The notes under the pieces: model-generated
The model's database searches: none
Told to the model about the DNA's origin: nothing
The model's input: only the letters and a program-made list of their open reading frames with translations
NCBI RefSeq assembly: GCF_000174435.1
Contig: NZ_ACJN02000001.1
Location: 1,167,658-1,231,657 of the forward strand
From: Desulfonatronospira thiodismutans ASO3-1
GTDB lineage: Bacteria > Desulfobacterota > Desulfovibrionia > Desulfovibrionales > Desulfonatronovibrionaceae
DNA: 64,000 bases
Direction: 5' to 3'
Made by a program: the position numbers and the translations under genes
Shown here: positions 8,172-34,275 of the stretch, one piece after another
How positions within the stretch are numbered: the first letter of the stretch is position 1
Layout: every line of letters starts with the position of its first letter

Positions 8172-8721
8172 CAGGATTAACAGGATGGATAGGATAATCA
8201 GCCACCGGCCTGATGCCGCTGACTGAATTTACCATCCAGCACTCACTTTCTTCCGAGATTCATGAGTGCCGGAAAAAAGTGAGTGCTGGAGTGATTACCT
8301 TTTGGCCTGGCTTCCGGCTTGTCCTGTTGAATAGCTCGAAGAGCTAGCCCGCAGGGCATTCAACCGGGGCCAGGACAAAAATGTTTACTCTTATCAGACT
8401 CTTAATCCTGTAAATCCTGTCAAAAAACTCTTTTCTTTATTGGGTTCAGGATTAACAGGATGGATAGGATAATCAGCCACCAGCCTGATGCCGCTGACTG
8501 AATTTACCATCCAGCACTCACTTTCTTCCGACATTCATGAGTGCCGGAAAAAAGTGAGTGCTGGAGTGATAACCTTTTGGCCTGGCTTCCGGCTTGTCCT
8601 GTTGAATAGCTCGAAGAGCTAGCCCGCAGGGCATTCAACCGGGGCCAGGACAAAAATGTTTACTCTTATCAGACTCTTAATCCTGTAAATCCTGTCAAAA
8701 AAGTTCTTTTCTTTATTGGGT
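8172..8721. repeat. 275-bp direct tandem duplication with internal inverted repeats
   Basis: Copy 1 (8172-8446) and copy 2 (8447 to about 8721) are almost identical. Each starts CAGGATTAACAGGATGGATA, carries the inverted pair CCAGCACTCACTTT / AAAGTGAGTGCTGG (8236-8289 and again about 275 bp on), then the AATAGCTCGAAGAGCTAG module and ends in TTTCTTTATTGGGTT. Parts of the unit recur singly at 7.6, 11.2 and 40.8 kb. There is no gene inside. Confidence 0.9.
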
Positions 8722-8754
8722 TGCAGGCAAAGCCCGCCTTAGAGGATATATAAC

Positions 8755-9009
8755 ATGAGAGACGAACTGTTCTGGGATTGCCATGACCCGACTCCTGAAC
8801 TGGAAATCCAGCGAGCTATCAATTTTGGTGGTTTTGATTATATTGACTACATTCAAAAAAAATATGGCATGGACAGGTTCAGGCAAACCCTGATAAACAA
8901 TCGCAATCTCAGTCGAAAAGCGGTAAACTACTGGTGCATGGTGCTGGGTATAGACCGTAATCAAACACGCTCATATCAGACAGAGAACATCTGGCTGCCT
9001 GTAAGATGA
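8755..9009 (+). CDS. DUF6922-like small protein
   Basis: The 84-residue product begins MRDELFWD and ends with the pattern RNLSRKAVNYWCMVLGI, which resembles the DUF6922 family (LFWD near the N-terminus, later LSxKTxNFW). Such genes commonly precede nucleotidyltransferase toxin-like genes, and an MNT gene follows 39 bp downstream, so the pair is probably one module. A helical DNA- or partner-binding role is plausible, but no biochemistry is known to me. It starts right after a duplicated repeat unit. Confidence 0.65.
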   Translation: MRDELFWDCHDPTPELEIQRAINFGGFDYIDYIQKKYGMDRFRQTLINNRNLSRKAVNYWCMVLGIDRNQTRSYQTENIWLPVR

Positions 9010-9047
9010 GGTCTCACCATTTCAAGCAGGTTAATACGAGAGGAATA

Positions 9048-9446
9048 ATGAACAACCTGATTACAGCCACCAAGCAATTTTTTGATGCAAGCAGCGAAGA
9101 CATCCTTCTAATATTCGTCTTCGGCTCCGCCGCAGTCAACAGGTTGACCAGTGAAAGCGATGTGGACGTGGCCCTGTTGTTCAGCTGCACGCCGGAGTAT
9201 TTCCAGATCCTGAAAATCAAAGCCGAACTTGCCGCAGCAGTAGGCAGAGAGGTTGACCTCGTGATCCTGAACGACTCCTCTCCCATAATCAGGATGCAGG
9301 TCCTGAAGAACGGTATACTGCTCAAAAAATTCAGCAGTGCGGCATACAGCGAATTTGTGGTCAGGACAGTCAAGGAATACGACGACCTCAAAAGGAAAAG
9401 AAAAGAAGCGGAAGACAGGCTCCTGCAGGGAAGAATATATGCCTGA
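9048..9446 (+). CDS. MNT-family nucleotidyltransferase (MntA-like)
   Basis: The 132-residue product contains FVFGSAAVNRLTSESDVDVALLF: the GS motif and the D-x-D pair of minimal nucleotidyltransferases, then EVDLVIL with a third acidic residue. The C-terminal EYDDLKRKRKEAEDRLLQG is the tail usual in MntA antitoxins. ATG 9048 is chosen because AGAGGAATA precedes it; an upstream frame to 9006 is not conserved. MntA normally neutralises a DUF86/HEPN toxin, but no HEPN gene is next to it: an unrelated cyclase gene starts 30 bp later. The DUF6922-like gene upstream may be its true partner. Confidence 0.8.
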   Translation: MNNLITATKQFFDASSEDILLIFVFGSAAVNRLTSESDVDVALLFSCTPEYFQILKIKAELAAAVGREVDLVILNDSSPIIRMQVLKNGILLKKFSSAAYSEFVVRTVKEYDDLKRKRKEAEDRLLQGRIYA

Positions 9447-22655: not shown

Positions 22656-23150
22656 CGGTTGTCCTCCTTATGGTTTGGTCACCGATAGTACCCCAGGCCC
22701 TCAAATTTTTCACGCAGGCTTGCCGGAAAGACACAAAAAACCTGCTAATTGCGCTTTAACAATGCTTTGGCCACTATAATTCTATGACCTTGCAGGCTGG
22801 GCAATCGTCACCCAGGTACTTTTGTCCCTGGGGCTGGAAATTTATATTTTCCCTTTGTTCTCCACAATAATCCGGCGGACTATATTCCCCCCATGCTGGT
22901 ACTGCCCTCCCTGGTGGTATAGACGTATCTTCACACTCCGCGCTTGACGCGATATGTGAAGATGATGTTTACATTTCGCGTTTGACGCGATGTGTGAAGA
23001 TGATCGTCGTCTCTTTTTGCGGCCAATGACACCAACGCCATGACCCTGCCCCACTCGGAAGGCCGGAAATTATCTATATGGATAATTTACCAAACAACCC
23101 AGCGCAGCAGGCCGTATGCTCAGGAGCGTAAGGACTTCTGATAATCAGGT

Positions 23151-23345
23151 TTATGCTGGAAATTTGTCCAGGCCAAGAGCAATGGGCCTGATCAAGTTTA
23201 TTCATCTGCGCAGGGCTCAGCGTCCCGATAAAATCGCCGAGCATGCTTTTGGGAATGCTGACCAGCTCATCACAATGGATGCTGCAGCCATGTTTTAGTC
23301 CATTGTCTATTCATGCAGGTACTTGTGTGGAAAGCCCATGGTACG
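23151..23345 (-). pseudogene. mazF/pemK 3'-fragment, copy 1 (frameshifted)
   Basis: Homologous to the fragment at 24859-25077 but with a short deletion near 23180, where CGATGGACAGTG has become CAATGGG, which breaks the frame near the C-terminus. The N-terminal half of the toxin is missing. Confidence 0.6.
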
Positions 23346-23966
23346 CAGAATAAACAGGAGCCCAGATTGCGGTGGAAAAACGGGAGTCCAGGAGTGCCTA
23401 ATAAAGAGACATCTTCACACTCCGCGCTTGACGCGATATGTAAAGATGATGTTTACATTTCGCGCTTGACGCGATGTGTAAAGATCCTCGTCGTCTCTTT
23501 TTGCGGTCAACGACACCAACGTCATGAACATGCTCCTTATTGAATCTGACAGCAGCCATACCCATAAATATCGCGCTTAAGGCTTAGATTGGGTTTTGGC
23601 CTCCCAGTTTTCTGACCATGCAGACAAGCAATCCTCCCACGAGCGCCTTTGTCCTTGAGGCTGGAGATTCCATCTTTCCCAGTTCTTAATAAAAATATCC
23701 AGCGCCCCATGCCGCCTTGTCCACCCACAGTAATAAAGAGACATCTTCACACTCCGCGCTTGACGCGATATGTAAAGATGATGTTTACATTTCGCGCTTG
23801 ACGCGATGTGTGAAAATCATCGTTGTCTCTTTTTGCGGCCAATGACACCAACGCCATGACCACGCCCCACTCGGAAGGCCGGCCAGTATCTATATGGATA
23901 TTTTACCGAACAACCCAGCGCAGCCGGCCGTATGCTCAGGAGCGTAAGGACTGCTGATAATCAGGT

Positions 23967-24160
23967 TTATGCTGGATATTTGTCCAGGCCAAGAGCGATT
24001 AACAGTGCCTGATCAAGTTTATTAATCTGCGCAGGGCTCAGCGTCCCGATAAAATCGCTGAGCATGCGTTTGGGAATACTGACCAGCTCATCACAATGGA
24101 TGCTGCGGTCATGTTTTAGTCCATTGTCTATTCCTGCAGGTACTTGTGTGGAAAGCCCAT
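23967..24160 (-). pseudogene. mazF/pemK 3'-fragment, copy 2
   Basis: The frame reads [19 protein letters not shown]...[24 protein letters not shown] and stops normally, so the C-terminal 55-60 residues of a MazF-like toxin are intact. No start or N-terminal barrel is present. Confidence 0.6.
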
Positions 24161-24690
24161 GGTACGCTGAATAAACAGGAGCGTAGATTGCTGTGGAAAA
24201 AATGGGAGTTCAGGAGTGCCTAATAAAGAGACATCTTCACACTCCGCGCTTGACGCGATGTGTAAAGATGATGTTTACATTTCGCGCTTGACGCAATGTG
24301 TAAAGATCCTCGTCGTCTCTTTTTGCGGCCAATGACACCAACGTCATGAACATGCTCCTTATAGAATCTGACAGCAGCCATACCCATAAATATCGCGCTT
24401 AAGGCTTAGATTGGGTTTTGGCCTCCCAGTTTTCTGACCATGCAGACAAGCTTCATCCTCCCACGAACGCCTTTGTCCTTGAGGCTGGAGATTTCATCTT
24501 TCCCAGTTCTTAATAAAAATATCCAGCGCCCCATGCCGCCTTGTCCACCATGGTAATAAAGAGACATCTTCACACTCCGCGCTTGACGCGATATGTAAAG
24601 ATGATGTTTACATTTCGCGCTTGACGCAAAGTGTGAAGATCATCATCGTCTCTTTTTGCGGCCAATGACACCAACGCCATGACCCTGCCC

Positions 24691-24752
24691 GTAACCATTC
24701 AGGGGGCAGATAACGGCCATCAGCCACCACCGAGGTCCCCCTGAATGGTTAC
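24691..24752. repeat. 62-bp MITE-like element with 7-bp target duplication
   Basis: GTAACCATTCAGGGG at the left mirrors CCCCTGAATGGTTAC at the right (15 of 15). CCTGCCC flanks it on both sides. The same site in the other array copies is empty, which proves insertion. Confidence 0.8.
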
Positions 24753-24858
24753 CCTGCCCCACTCGGAAGGCCGGGATTTATCTATATGGATATTTTACAG
24801 AACAACCCAGCGCAGCAGGCCGTATGCTAAGGAGCGTAAGGACTTCTGATAATCAGGT

Positions 24859-25077
24859 TTATGCTGGAAATTTGTCCAGGCCAAGAGCGATGGACAGTGC
24901 CTGATCAAGTTTATTCATCTGCGCAGGTCTCAGCGTCCCGATAAAATCGCTGAGCATGCTTTTGGGAATACTGACCAGCTCATCACAATGGATGCTACAG
25001 TCATATTTTAGTCCATTGTCTATTCCTGCAGGTACTTGTGTGGAAAGCCCAAGGTACGCAGTAACAAACAGGAGCAC
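24859..25077 (-). pseudogene. mazF/pemK 3'-fragment, copy 3
   Basis: The C-terminal part, [20 protein letters not shown] then [15 protein letters not shown], is the second half of a MazF/PemK endoribonuclease: the conserved VP....NGL and (N/H)CDE.....K segments. The N-terminal residues that carry the catalytic GDI/V and the RNA site are absent, and only about ten unrelated residues precede the match. It would not be a functional toxin. A fourth copy (25521-25570) is broken off near IS66 element 2. Confidence 0.65.
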
Positions 25078-25249
25078 AGAATGCGGTGGAAAAACGGGAG
25101 TCCAGGAGTGCCTAATATAGAGACATCTTTACACTCCGCGCTTGACGCGATATGTAAAGATGATGTTTACATTTCGCGCTTGACGCGATGTGTAAAGATC
25201 CTCGTCGTCTCTTTTTGCGGCCAACGACACCAACGCCATGATCCTGCCC

Positions 25250-25413
25250 GTAACCATTCAGAACGGCCAGGGGGACAGTCCCCGCGACACTTTTACTGCA
25301 CAACTGAAAAGTACAGACGCAAAATTTTGTGAAGCATCATAATCATCACTTAGCGGGGACAGTCCCCTGGCCTTGTGCCATCAGCCACCACCGAGGTCCC
25401 CCTGAATGGTTAC
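25250..25413. repeat. Same MITE with a second element nested inside
   Basis: The ends GTAACCATTCAG / CTGAATGGTTAC sit at the same array position as the copy at 24691. Inside it, a further inverted repeat (GGCCAGGGGGACAGTCCCCGC / GCGGGGACAGTCCCCTGGCC, about 110 bp) has been added, with loss of about nine bases of the host element. Confidence 0.75.
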
Positions 25414-25678
25414 CCTGCCCCACTCGGAAGGCCGGGAATACATCTATATGGATAATTTACCAAACAACACAGCGCATCCGGCCGTCTGCTCAGGAGCGTG
25501 AGAACTTCTGATAATCAAGTTTATGCTGGATATTTGTCCAGGCCAAGAGCGATGGACAGTGCCTGATCAAATTTTATTGTAAGCGTCCAAACGGGTACAC
25601 CTATCCATGGGCGGGTATCGTTGGTAGTATTCCCTGGCCCACTGGATATGCAGCAGGCCAGGGGTATGATGGTTGGGA

Positions 25679-31006: not shown

Positions 31007-31380
31007 TTGAAACTTAGTACTAGGCCAGGCCCGGTCTCTTCCCAGACCGCCAGGGAGGCCCGCCTTGCACACTCCCGTTACCACTTCTCAGATGCTGACT
31101 TTTTTTCCGACAGTCCCGGACCAAACCATAAAAATAACAGTTACGGCTTTACCCTTATTGAAATCCTCAGTGTGATAGCCATCCTTGGTATTCTTGCAGC
31201 CATTTCTCTTCCAAGGTTAGGGGAATACCGCGACATAGCCAGGCAAACCTCTGTCCTTCACGACCTGCGGGTTTGTCTGGCAGAAACCGCCATTGATATC
31301 CATGAAGGCAGTTGATACCGATGCAGGGCTCATACATGTGCTCCCGGCCTGGAAATGGGCCCTTGGAGAGCAACCGGGGA
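31007..31380 (+). pseudogene. Broken type IV pilin gene next to IS630
   Basis: The frame contains NSYG followed by FTLIEILSVIAILGILAAIS, then PRLGEYRDIARQTSVLHDLR and VCLAETAIDIHEGS before a stop at 31313-31315. It matches the second pilin at 18760-19119 up to DIHNGD, after which that protein goes on for 45 residues; here a +2 frame continues for a while (QGSYMCSRPGNG), so a frameshift or deletion ended it. The codons before the leader partly derive from the IS630 edge and no good start remains. Third pilin paralogue of the window. Confidence 0.65.
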
Positions 31381-31523
31381 AACTGGTGTGAACGACGAAC
31401 GGTTCTTGGTTCTTCGTTCTGCGTTAAAAACAAAAACAGTTCCTTGTTCCTCGTTCTTCGTTCTTCGTTAAAACCAAGAACCAGGAACCAAGAACGGCGG
31501 CAGAGCCGCCGAACCAAGAACCC

Positions 31524-31706: not shown

Positions 31707-31771
31707 GAGCAGGTGAGGGTGTGAGGGTGAGTGTGAGGTTCTTCGTCCTCGTTTTTCGTTCTTCGTTAGCC

Positions 31772-31839
31772 TACACTCCGCGCTTGACGCGATATGTAAA
31801 GATGATGTTTACATTTCGCGCTTGACGCGAAGTGTAAAG
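31772..31839. repeat. REP doublet
   Basis: Two CGCG-CTTGA-CGCG hairpins in the same orientation, 38 bp apart, with the right arm of the first (TGTAAA) complementary to the left arm of the second (TTTACA). Confidence 0.85.
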
Positions 31840-31881
31840 GAATTCATCAATCATGTTCAATAAGACTATCTCTGCCCATTG

Positions 31882-32060
31882 GGCGATGTGGATGCCTTTG
31901 CCGATAAGATCAACCACTTGGCCGAAAGCCCGCAACTGTGAAGAGAAATGGGCGAATACAACCGGGCCAAACTGGAGCGGATGTTTACCCCTGAGCAGAT
32001 GGTCCGGGAATATGAGGATTTGTTCCAAGAGGCGCTGAAAAAGAAAAGACAAGATAAAAC
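31882..32060 (+). pseudogene. C-terminal fragment of a group 1 (GT4) glycosyltransferase
   Basis: The frame GDVDAFADKINHLAESPQL, a TGA, then REMGEYNRAKLERMFTPEQM and VREYEDLFQEALKKK is the end of a GT4 glycosyltransferase, where (D)VDAxAxxI and MFTPExMVxxYExL are standard. An in-frame TGA replaces a residue, and nothing upstream codes for the rest. A REP doublet begins about 10 bp later. Confidence 0.65.
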
Positions 32061-32069
32061 AGGTGAATC

Positions 32070-32144
32070 ATCTTCACACATCGCGTTTGTCGCAATATGT
32101 AAAGATGATGTTTACATTTGGCGCTTGACGCGATGTGTAAAGAT
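32070..32144. repeat. REP doublet after a glycosyltransferase fragment
   Basis: Two hairpin units of the family; the first has the variant loop TTTGT and the second the standard CTTGA. Confidence 0.85.
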
Positions 32145-32225
32145 GATCGTCGTTTTTTTCTGCAGCCAATGACATAAACTCCATTGTCCAGATTTTTGTA
32201 AGATTGCCCCGCCGTGGATCGTAGT

Positions 32226-32735
32226 AGTCTGGCGGTTGGCCCCGGTCAAGGGCCTGGATGTGCTCCTGGAAGCCTTCCGGCAGATCGCGGGCAAGACCGC
32301 AGCGCACTTAGTCCTGCTGGGCTACGGTCCGCTCAGGCCGAGGCTGAAATCCATGACCCGGGAGCTGGGGCTGGCCGGGCGGGTGCATTTTCCCGGGTTC
32401 CAGGACACCCCCTAACCTGGATGCGCGAGGCAACGCTGCTGGCCCTGCCTTCCCGGCATGAAGGGCTGCCCACTGTACTCATCGAGGCCCTGGACTGCGG
32501 CACCCAGATCGTGGCCACGGACTGCCCTGGCGGCTTGGCGGAAATCCAGGAAGATGGCAAATACGGTCACATTCGTGCCTGTGGAAGACCCCACAACCCT
32601 GGCCCAGACCATGCTTAGCAACCTTAACGGCACTTTCCATGTGCCCTCCGAAACCATCACAAGGCCCGGGCCGAAGATTTCACCGTTGAAAATGCCGAAA
32701 AGCAGTATATGGAAACATTGCTTGGCAAAATATAG
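32226..32735 (+). pseudogene. Frameshifted GT4 glycosyltransferase fragment
   Basis: Three frames together give a glycosyltransferase half: RLAPVKGLDVLLEAFRQIAG with LGYGPLRPRL and VHFPGFQDTP, then after a stop ATLLALPSRHEGLPTVLIEA and GTQIVATDCPGG, then after a shift VPVEDPTTLAQTML and finally EDFTVENAEKQYMETLLGKI with a natural TAG. The conserved nucleotide-sugar segments (E-x7-E region EGLPTVLIEA) are visible. Multiple frame breaks make it a pseudogene. A REP starts 6 bp after the stop. Confidence 0.75.
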
Positions 32736-32740
32736 CCCTC

Positions 32741-32786
32741 ATCTTTACACCTCGCGCTTGACGCGATATGCGCGATATGTGAAGAT
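32741..32786. repeat. Single REP unit after the glycosyltransferase stop codon
   Basis: One hairpin with an internal repeat of CGCGATATG that lengthens its right arm. It begins 6 bp past the TAG. Confidence 0.8.
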
Positions 32787-32809
32787 GTTCTTCTTCTCCG
32801 CGGCTAAAA

Positions 32810-32915
32810 CAGCACTTTCCGCGTCGCCCCCGAAATACTCAAGACCCGAACCGAGGATTTCACTGTAGAAAAGGCCACAAAGCAGTATAGGGGCACCCTG
32901 CCTGGCAAAATATGA
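32810..32915 (+). pseudogene. Duplicate of the glycosyltransferase 3' end
   Basis: This 106-bp stretch is a diverged copy of the last 106 bp of the glycosyltransferase pseudogene at an offset of 180 bp: TEDFTVEKATKQYRGTLPGK against AEDFTVENAEKQYMETLLGK, again ending in a stop and again followed within 7 bp by a REP. Confidence 0.7.
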
Positions 32916-32921
32916 CCCATC

Positions 32922-32958
32922 ATCTTCACACCTCGCGCTTGACGCGATGTGTAAAGAT
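32922..32958. repeat. REP unit directly upstream of the RAYT gene
   Basis: A well-formed palindrome: outer arms ATCTTCACA / TGTAAAGAT, inner CGCG / CGCG, loop CTTGA. It ends 17 bp before the transposase start. Confidence 0.9.
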
Positions 32959-32975
32959 GTGGCAGTTATTTTGAT

Positions 32976-33908
32976 GTGAAGTACAGCGACAAAAGGTTCT
33001 GCGGAAATGAACAGCGGATTTTCAGGGCCAGGTACAAGATCACTGAGCCCGGGGTTATCTCCCATGTCACCCAGCGTGCAGCAGGCAAAGAGCCGCTGTT
33101 TATTGATGATACTGATTATCTGACCATGCTGATGCTGCTAAAGGAAAGCGTGGAAAAGTTTGATCTGCGCTATTATGCCTTGAGTCTTATGTCTAATCAC
33201 ATACATATTTTGCTGGAACCCCGGGAAAATAATCTGCCTGAAGCAATGCGCTCCATATTTTCAAGGTATGCAGCCAAATTCAATACAAAGTACCAGCGAA
33301 AGGGTCATCTTTTCGGTGGACCTTACCGTCAGTCAGTATGCCTGGACAATACTTATCTGCTCACAGCTTCACTATACATCCACCTGAATCCTGTCCGCGC
33401 CGGTATAGTGGATAAGACGGATGCATACAGATGGTCCTCGGCATCATTGTATTGTAATGAATCCGATGTGGAATCCTTTGTTGACCCCGGGGTTGTATTG
33501 CGCCTGGTTCATGACCAGGAACCCGAAGCCCGAAAGAATTACTGCCGAATGCTTGAGCAGGCCCACGGGCATGAGCCGGAAAACGCTCTTGAGCATGAGG
33601 GGGCTATTGAAAAATTCTGTATCCGCCTGTCTCAAATTTTTCCAAGGTTGTTTAAAAAGCTGGGCAAAAAAACCGAAAATACAGAAAAGTACCTTGGATG
33701 CAATGCATCTATGCTGGATCTGACCCGGCTTGATCAGGCCATTGAAAATACCGACTTCAGCCGTTCCTGGTCCATGGAAAGCAGGAAGGCCAAGAAGTAT
33801 ATAGTGGAACAATTATTGGCCAGGGGATTTAAGAAGACCGAGATAGCCGGGCGGTTGGGGATTTCACGCATGTCAGTATACAATATTCTCAATTCTCATT
33901 GTGATTAA
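32976..33908 (+). CDS. REP-associated tyrosine transposase (RAYT, Y1/HUH type)
   Basis: The 310-residue protein has the Y1_Tnp core: ITEPGVISHVTQRAAGKEPLF, the metal-binding SNHIHILLEP motif (HUH-like) near residue 75, then KGHLFGGPYRQSVC and SLYIHLNPVRAGIV with the presumed catalytic tyrosine. The C-terminal 60 residues carry an added helix-turn-helix (GFKKTEIAGRLGISRMSVYNIL). RAYTs are single-strand nucleases that act on REP hairpins. GTG 32976 is the start because the frame closes upstream at 32954. REP units lie 17 bp before and 9 bp after it, so this is the likely source of the REP family here. Intact. Confidence 0.9.
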   Translation: MKYSDKRFCGNEQRIFRARYKITEPGVISHVTQRAAGKEPLFIDDTDYLTMLMLLKESVEKFDLRYYALSLMSNHIHILLEPRENNLPEAMRSIFSRYAAKFNTKYQRKGHLFGGPYRQSVCLDNTYLLTASLYIHLNPVRAGIVDKTDAYRWSSASLYCNESDVESFVDPGVVLRLVHDQEPEARKNYCRMLEQAHGHEPENALEHEGAIEKFCIRLSQIFPRLFKKLGKKTENTEKYLGCNASMLDLTRLDQAIENTDFSRSWSMESRKAKKYIVEQLLARGFKKTEIAGRLGISRMSVYNILNSHCD

Positions 33909-33917
33909 CAGACAAAC

Positions 33918-33992
33918 ATCTTTACACTTCGCGCTTGACGCAATTTGTAAAGATGATGTTTACATTTCGCGCTTGACGCAAAGTGTGAAGAT
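33918..33992. repeat. REP doublet directly downstream of the RAYT gene
   Basis: Two same-orientation units 38 bp apart, starting 9 bp after the transposase stop. The palindromes are slightly degenerate (CGCAATTTG and CGCAAAGTG right arms). Confidence 0.9.
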
Positions 33993-34044
33993 ATCATGAG
34001 TATAAAAAGTTGGTTTACAATGTTAGTCCACAGGAGTACATGCC

Positions 34045-34275
34045 ATGATGGTCAATGTTCATGAAGCAAAAACCAATTTTTCGAACCTGTTGGAAATGGC
34101 TCACGCAGGACAGGAAATCATCCTGGCCAAGTCTGGAAAACCCTATGCCCTTTTGACTCCTCTTCCTTCAGGTGGGGTGGCTCAGCGCAAGCCCGGACGG
34201 CTGCCTGGCAAGGTTACGGAATCCTTTTTTGAACCTTTGCCAGAAGAAGAAATTGCCGCCTGGGAGAGGACGTGA
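34045..34275 (+). CDS. Phd/YefM-type antitoxin
   Basis: The 76-residue product starts MMVNVHEAKTNFSNLLEMAH and contains the GQEIILAKSGKPYALLTP loop, the Phd/YefM fold, then a proline/acidic tail that would bind a toxin. Its TGA overlaps a GTG start of a vapC gene, but that toxin gene is broken. If expressed it is an antitoxin without a functional partner here. Confidence 0.85.
   Translation: MMVNVHEAKTNFSNLLEMAHAGQEIILAKSGKPYALLTPLPSGGVAQRKPGRLPGKVTESFFEPLPEEEIAAWERT

Follow-up and report, generated by a model that had tools for sequence, protein, structure and literature searches.

We analysed a 64,000-nucleotide stretch of Desulfonatronospira thiodismutans ASO3-1 (the window; C1:1167658-1231657 of the 4.1-Mb genome G000) that carries a gene for a REP-associated tyrosine transposase (RAYT) set among repetitive extragenic palindromes (REPs) and pieces of glycosyltransferase (GT) genes. 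The segment 31772-33993 reads REP pair, GT-A remnant, REP pair, GT-B remnant, REP, tail 3, REP, RAYT, REP pair. A related array of REP pairs lies at 22.9-25.2 kb. The features are as follows:

31772..31839, + strand: REP pair directly 5' of GT-A, two same-orientation REPs 38 bp apart (REP listing)
31839..32066, + strand: GT-A remnant, short form (85% to the second locus L010, 82% to genome G010)
32066..32148, + strand: REP pair linking GT-A to GT-B (REP listing)
32148..32735, + strand: GT-B remnant with tail 2 at its 3' end; Pfam Glycos_transf_1 / Glyco_trans_1_4 (profile match, paralogue alignment)
32739..32790, + strand: REP 3' of GT-B (REP listing, folding)
32791..32915, + strand: tail 3, a second, much shorter GT-B remnant (alignment; sites in common with GT-B of G010, not with 32148-32735)
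32918..32958, + strand: REP between tail 3 and RAYT (REP listing, folding)
32976..33908, + strand: RAYT / TnpA-REP-like HUH transposase, 310 aa (profile match)
33914..33993, + strand: REP pair, 9 bp past the RAYT stop (REP listing)
22928..25249, + strand: related array, 6 REP pairs with a GT-B N-domain flank and spacer X or Y (REP listing, alignment)

The REP core TCGCGCTTGACGCGA is strongly overrepresented in the window (22 copies at ≤3 mismatches versus 0.76 expected; 0/100 shuffles reach 22). Genome-wide, 42 copies are present at ≤1 mismatch in 4.1 Mb, which is lower than the usual REP copy number of more than 100. A single REP measures ~40 bp and folds as a hairpin (z -5.1); a REP pair measures 76 bp. 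The elements fit the definition of a REP as a multicopy, intergenic imperfect palindrome of 20-60 nt, and most lie outside open reading frames (ORFs). Rfam gave no match across 22-36 kb of the window. All REP cores at the locus run in the + direction and hence form direct repeats. The pairs, direct and 38 bp apart, are therefore not REPINs, in which two inverted REPs form one long hairpin, and the RAYT gene lacks the inverted flanking REPs used as a RAYT criterion (PMC2817692). Across the REPs listed together with their flanks, the feet show no conserved tetranucleotide of the GTAG/GTGG or CGTC type. The REP after GT-B contains an internal repeat, GCGATATGCGCGATATG (32752-32783), that widens the hairpin loop.

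The RAYT protein matches Pfam Y1_Tnp at 31 bits (cut-off 23), with HIH in SNHIHIL and the tyrosine in YIHLNPVRAG identified by reading the sequence. With an IS200/IS605-type Y1 domain, an HUH motif and a predicted catalytic tyrosine, it qualifies as a RAYT; its NCBIfam REP_Tyr_transpos score of 57 bits is under the cut-off of 80. A C-terminal helix-turn-helix (HTH) is suggested by an HTH_23-like match slightly under cut-off (E 2.7e-5). C-terminal HTH_23/HTH_28/DnaA-like domains combined with an absence of nearby REPs characterize TnpA-Y1 subclass 2.1, or TIRYT (PMC6006769); the window RAYT has an HTH_23-like C terminus, tied in the literature to this REP-less subclass, yet it is flanked by REPs. 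There are three full-length RAYT paralogues in the genome, 65-69% identical in DNA (window 32976-33908, L009:5458-6411 and L120:4041-4970), each with its own variant of the REP foot (CATCTTTACA, TGCACATTT and TGCACGAAA). The window gene is bordered on both sides by its own REP type (32918-32958, 33914-33993), and the feet at L009 and L120 differ from it. A RAYT scan of the named genomes gave one distant match (L128, 69%, in a Desulfohalobiaceae metagenome-assembled genome), with REPs past the stop and no GT tail. An apparent 988-aa RAYT fusion in G010 was rejected because it stems from a run of N in that contig.

The same pieces recur at two other loci in different orders. L010 lies in the same genome (C1 ~276.8-279.7 kb, minus strand) and reads RAYT last part, REP pair, start of a long-form GT-A, Fic, antisense GT-D remnant, GT-B, GT-C, REP pair, GT-A, REP. 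In G010, a genome of another genus in the same family, contig C130 reads intact GT-D, REP, GT-C, REP, GT-B, REP, intact RAYT, REP pair, GT-A, and this module sits inside a polysaccharide gene cluster. A second copy, arranged GT-D...RAYT-REP pair-GT-A-Fic and broken by a run of N, lies ~6 kb away on C130 (L091:711-5694); its GT-A-to-Fic junction is shared with L010. At the REPs the pieces change neighbours. GT-B and its REP are followed by RAYT in G010, by GT-C in L010 (where the REP survives as a remnant) and by tail 3 in the window. GT-C and its REP are followed by GT-B or GT-A, and a REP leading into GT-B is preceded by GT-C, GT-D or GT-A.

The GT remnants themselves point to a common source. 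GT-B consists of residues ~83-98 fused to residues ~196-end of an intact paralogue in G010 (L090:11074-12180), with additional frameshifts. We found that its start directly past a REP at residue ~83 and the jump from 98 to 196 are common to the window, L010 (with its REP remnant) and G010. The shared REP/GT junction and internal deletion indicate a single origin of the units. Tail 3 retains ~20 bases of the unit start (TTCTTCTCCGCGGC) after its REP and then skips to the final 108 bases of the gene, and GT-C begins with a segment related to the GT-B unit start. GT-B and tail 3 are two deletion derivatives of a single ancestral REP-GT-REP unit. Since both start past a REP at residue ~83 of the same GT, they are not independent cases of a gene tail followed by a REP.

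A preliminary description of this DNA had counted three GT ends, each followed by a REP. Two of them stand: the GT-B stop (TAG, 32733-32735) and the tail 3 stop (TGA, 32913-32915) are each followed 4-5 bases on by a REP foot, beginning at ~32740 and ~32919-32921, respectively. The third does not: GT-A has no in-frame stop at 32060, which is only an approximate end, and the stop present in its L010 homologue was destroyed by a 1-bp change in the window. The window GT-A also contains one earlier in-frame stop, and its short form differs from the long form in G010 and L010 by a 57-bp deletion beginning at the REP foot. The intact homologue with a REP after its stop that had been sought as a donor did not emerge. 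The genome of the window has no intact gene close to GT-B, the nearest intact paralogue being the one in G010 (61% aa), and searches of its own genome, of 60 relatives and, at the DNA level, of 348 genomes of the order found no intact donor GT with a REP past the stop. No REP follows the stop of L090:11074-12180, and none lies on either side of a GT-B remnant in the congener G006 (90% to G010 over 428 bp).

The two gene ends that do precede REPs had been taken for a 106-bp duplication at a 180-bp offset. The repeat is real: 85/107 aligned bases of 32626-32735 and 32808-32915 are identical at an offset of 180-182 with a 2-bp indel, and the similarity extends across the REP at offset 181. At 79% identity, however, it is old and not a recent tandem copy. 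Tail 2 is closer to L010 (88%) and tail 3 to G010 (87%) than they are to each other. Of the sites informative among the four sequences, 6 supported the pairings tail 2/L010 and tail 3/G010, 0 paired the two tails, and 1 favoured the third arrangement (8, 0 and 0, respectively, with G006 substituted for G010). In a maximum-likelihood tree the window GT-B joined that of L010 (support 100/99); the placement of tail 3 was not fixed because tail 3 is short. A simple tandem event in this lineage, the duplication or slippage of a gene end with its REP independently of the other loci, would account for two adjacent copies in direct orientation 180 bp apart, but it is improbable given that the copies are nearer to other loci (87-88%) than to one another and share no informative site. 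A recent event of this kind was rejected on the pairwise identity and the 0 supporting sites. The earlier reading of tails 2 and 3 as a duplication was not supported for this lineage (0 sites versus 6). An ancient tandem duplication, predating the split of the loci, is possible as part of the best explanation.

Sequence identity across the locus is at odds with kinship. Window positions 32808-33989 match G010 at 94.4% DNA identity over 1184 bp, and the RAYT gene is 96% identical in DNA and 94% in protein (290/310 residues) to L090:16170-17102; its start codon is GTG in the window and ATG in G010. The moxR operon, 2.5 kb off, is 66% identical in DNA to G010 and 91% to G006. The contrast between RAYT (96%) and moxR (66%) argues for transfer between genera, and horizontal exchange of the block is the simple reading of these sequences. 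Within its own genome, GT-B is 87.5% identical to the GT-B of L010.

In the array at 22.9-25.2 kb, each of the 6 REP pairs is followed by 51-60 bp of the GT-B start (N-domain), 80-90% identical to the B units. The local alignment score of this flank against the GT start is 67, versus a maximum of 23 for ~2000 random stretches. The same 51-bp GT-derived segment trails the REP pairs in the B units and the 6 array units, so REP and flank have been multiplied together. In the array the flank leads into spacer X or Y, not into a GT, and the orientation of gene pieces relative to the repeats is mixed. The spacers alternate over 22928-25600: X (~440-510 bp) carries an antisense PemK/MazF remnant without its N-terminal part, and Y (~282 bp) has no match. 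The intact mazF homologue of this genome, at L121, ends without a REP on its 3' side.

Overall, we suggest that the region is probably a decaying, REP-punctuated array of GT remnants around RAYT, part of a module traded between genera of one family and rearranged by recombination between REPs. Recombination between direct repeats deletes or repeats the intervening DNA. As the REPs are direct repeats, homologous recombination between them, with internal deletion and horizontal exchange, suffices for the pattern. In this history all B-type fragments would descend from one ancestral unit, a GT4-type gene with one REP abutting codon ~83 and a second past the stop. Through recombination between direct REPs, entire REP-to-REP units would have been lost, fused or repeated in tandem, and internal deletions would have shortened them. 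One ancestral array losing different REP-to-REP units at each locus could have given all three orders. In the window, a B unit of L010 type would now stand coupled to one of G010 type (tail 3-REP-RAYT-REP pair). Shared junctions, differing unit orders at the three loci, block ends at REPs and incongruent identities can be read directly; that homologous recombination was the agent, and how the events followed one another, we infer. To that extent we agree with the earlier proposal that recombination between REPs spreads gene tails: the tails switch neighbours at REPs, and REP and GT flank have spread together.

The ends of homology blocks in the window are consistent with this history. Ten of 14 fall in REPs or ≤5 bp from them, and REPs make up 17% of the span (binomial test, 1e-5); being read from BLAST, the ends are neither exact nor independent, and the count is indicative only. 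Several further points weigh against recombination between REPs as we propose it. Four of the 14 ends lie away from REPs (32031, 32808 twice, and 33831). The G006 remnant without REPs implies that GT pieces also travel without them, which makes for a weaker case for REP-driven copying. The full arrangement is known from only 3 loci in 2 genomes, so the order of events is a reconstruction. RecA-type recombination and RAYT strand transfer at the same REPs are not distinguishable from these data. The G006 remnant, the IS630- and IS66-like genes nearby and the Fic, Phd, AbiE-type and DUF6088 genes at the loci would also fit a horizontally acquired island of decaying GT genes, in which the REPs are incidental and the junctions stem from illegitimate deletion and insertion sequence (IS) activity. 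We regard such an island as the least probable of the alternatives, since the block ends cluster at REPs (10/14 versus 17% of bases).

Alternatively, the REPs could bound single strands that RAYT sets in motion; host gene tails caught between two of them would then be passengers, copied or moved like cassettes. In favour, the locus has a cognate RAYT whose REP type is distinct from those of the L009 and L120 paralogues; the units run from REP to REP, and the 51-bp GT flank goes with the REP pairs in the B units and the 6 array units. Moreover, an E. coli relative cuts and rejoins single-stranded REPs in vitro (PMC8266576). Still, we consider passenger transport unlikely, if the foremost of the alternatives: the fragments are confined to 3 related loci and one array instead of being scattered at empty sites, the flanks of REPs at other places in the genome are unrelated, no pair of empty and filled sites was found, and REPtrons reportedly do not transpose as units (PMC6006769). 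A little less plausible again is a version in which the HTH-tailed RAYT cuts out entire single strands delimited by REPs and inserts them again, tails between direct REPs being gathered into arrays and exchanged between genera as mobile passengers. The suggestion that the RAYT/REP system copies adjacent host sequence thus found no support as regards RAYT agency; direct-repeat recombination is sufficient, and RAYT-driven copying is neither needed nor excluded.

Several other features surround the locus. IS630- and IS66-like genes lie in its vicinity. In the loci examined, toxin-antitoxin or defence-like genes (Phd, DUF6088, Fic, AbiE-type) border the GT/REP/RAYT module (window 34045-34275; L010:5645-6666 and 8175-9344; L090:17484-18329; L092). 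A palindromic GTTCTTGGTTCTTCGTT...GAACCAAGAAC element at 31394-31510 and 31736-31770 represents a separate repeat family, found also at L010:9713-9827, L093-L097 and L121, beside several of these loci. In addition, 84 bp at 31311-31394 are 92% identical to L017:7454-7537 and adjoin a truncated prepilin-like ORF.

REP clusters repeated together with flanking DNA have been published. In Pseudomonas fluorescens SBW25, tandem REPIN clusters take in flanking sequence, and some of them adjoin RAYT genes (PMC3116915). These and the GTAG/CGTC clusters (PMC3733652) resemble our locus in having REPs ≤~20 bp from gene 3' ends and clusters next to RAYT; here, in contrast, the flank consists of remnants of one GT gene, the units occur in 2 genera, and the pairs are direct (head-tail), not inverted. 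REPtrons (PMC2817692, PMC6006769) likewise have an HUH Y1 protein, REPs near both gene ends and their own REP type, whereas here the REPs have the same orientation on both sides, no GTAG foot is evident, copies number ~42 (≤1 mismatch) and the protein has a C-terminal HTH. The likeness to integron cassettes with attC hairpins, gene pieces between hairpin-forming repeats, is formal only: no integrase was seen, remnants take the place of intact genes, and in the related array the pieces have mixed orientation relative to the repeats. What is new is a cross-genus example with recognisable gene tails. It provides 3 comparable loci in 2 genera with the same REP-separated remnants in different orders, a system that makes it testable whether REPs act as recombination points, via RecA or the transposase. 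It also shows how what looks like a duplicated gene tail with its REP may instead be the place where two old lineages meet, and not a fresh copy.
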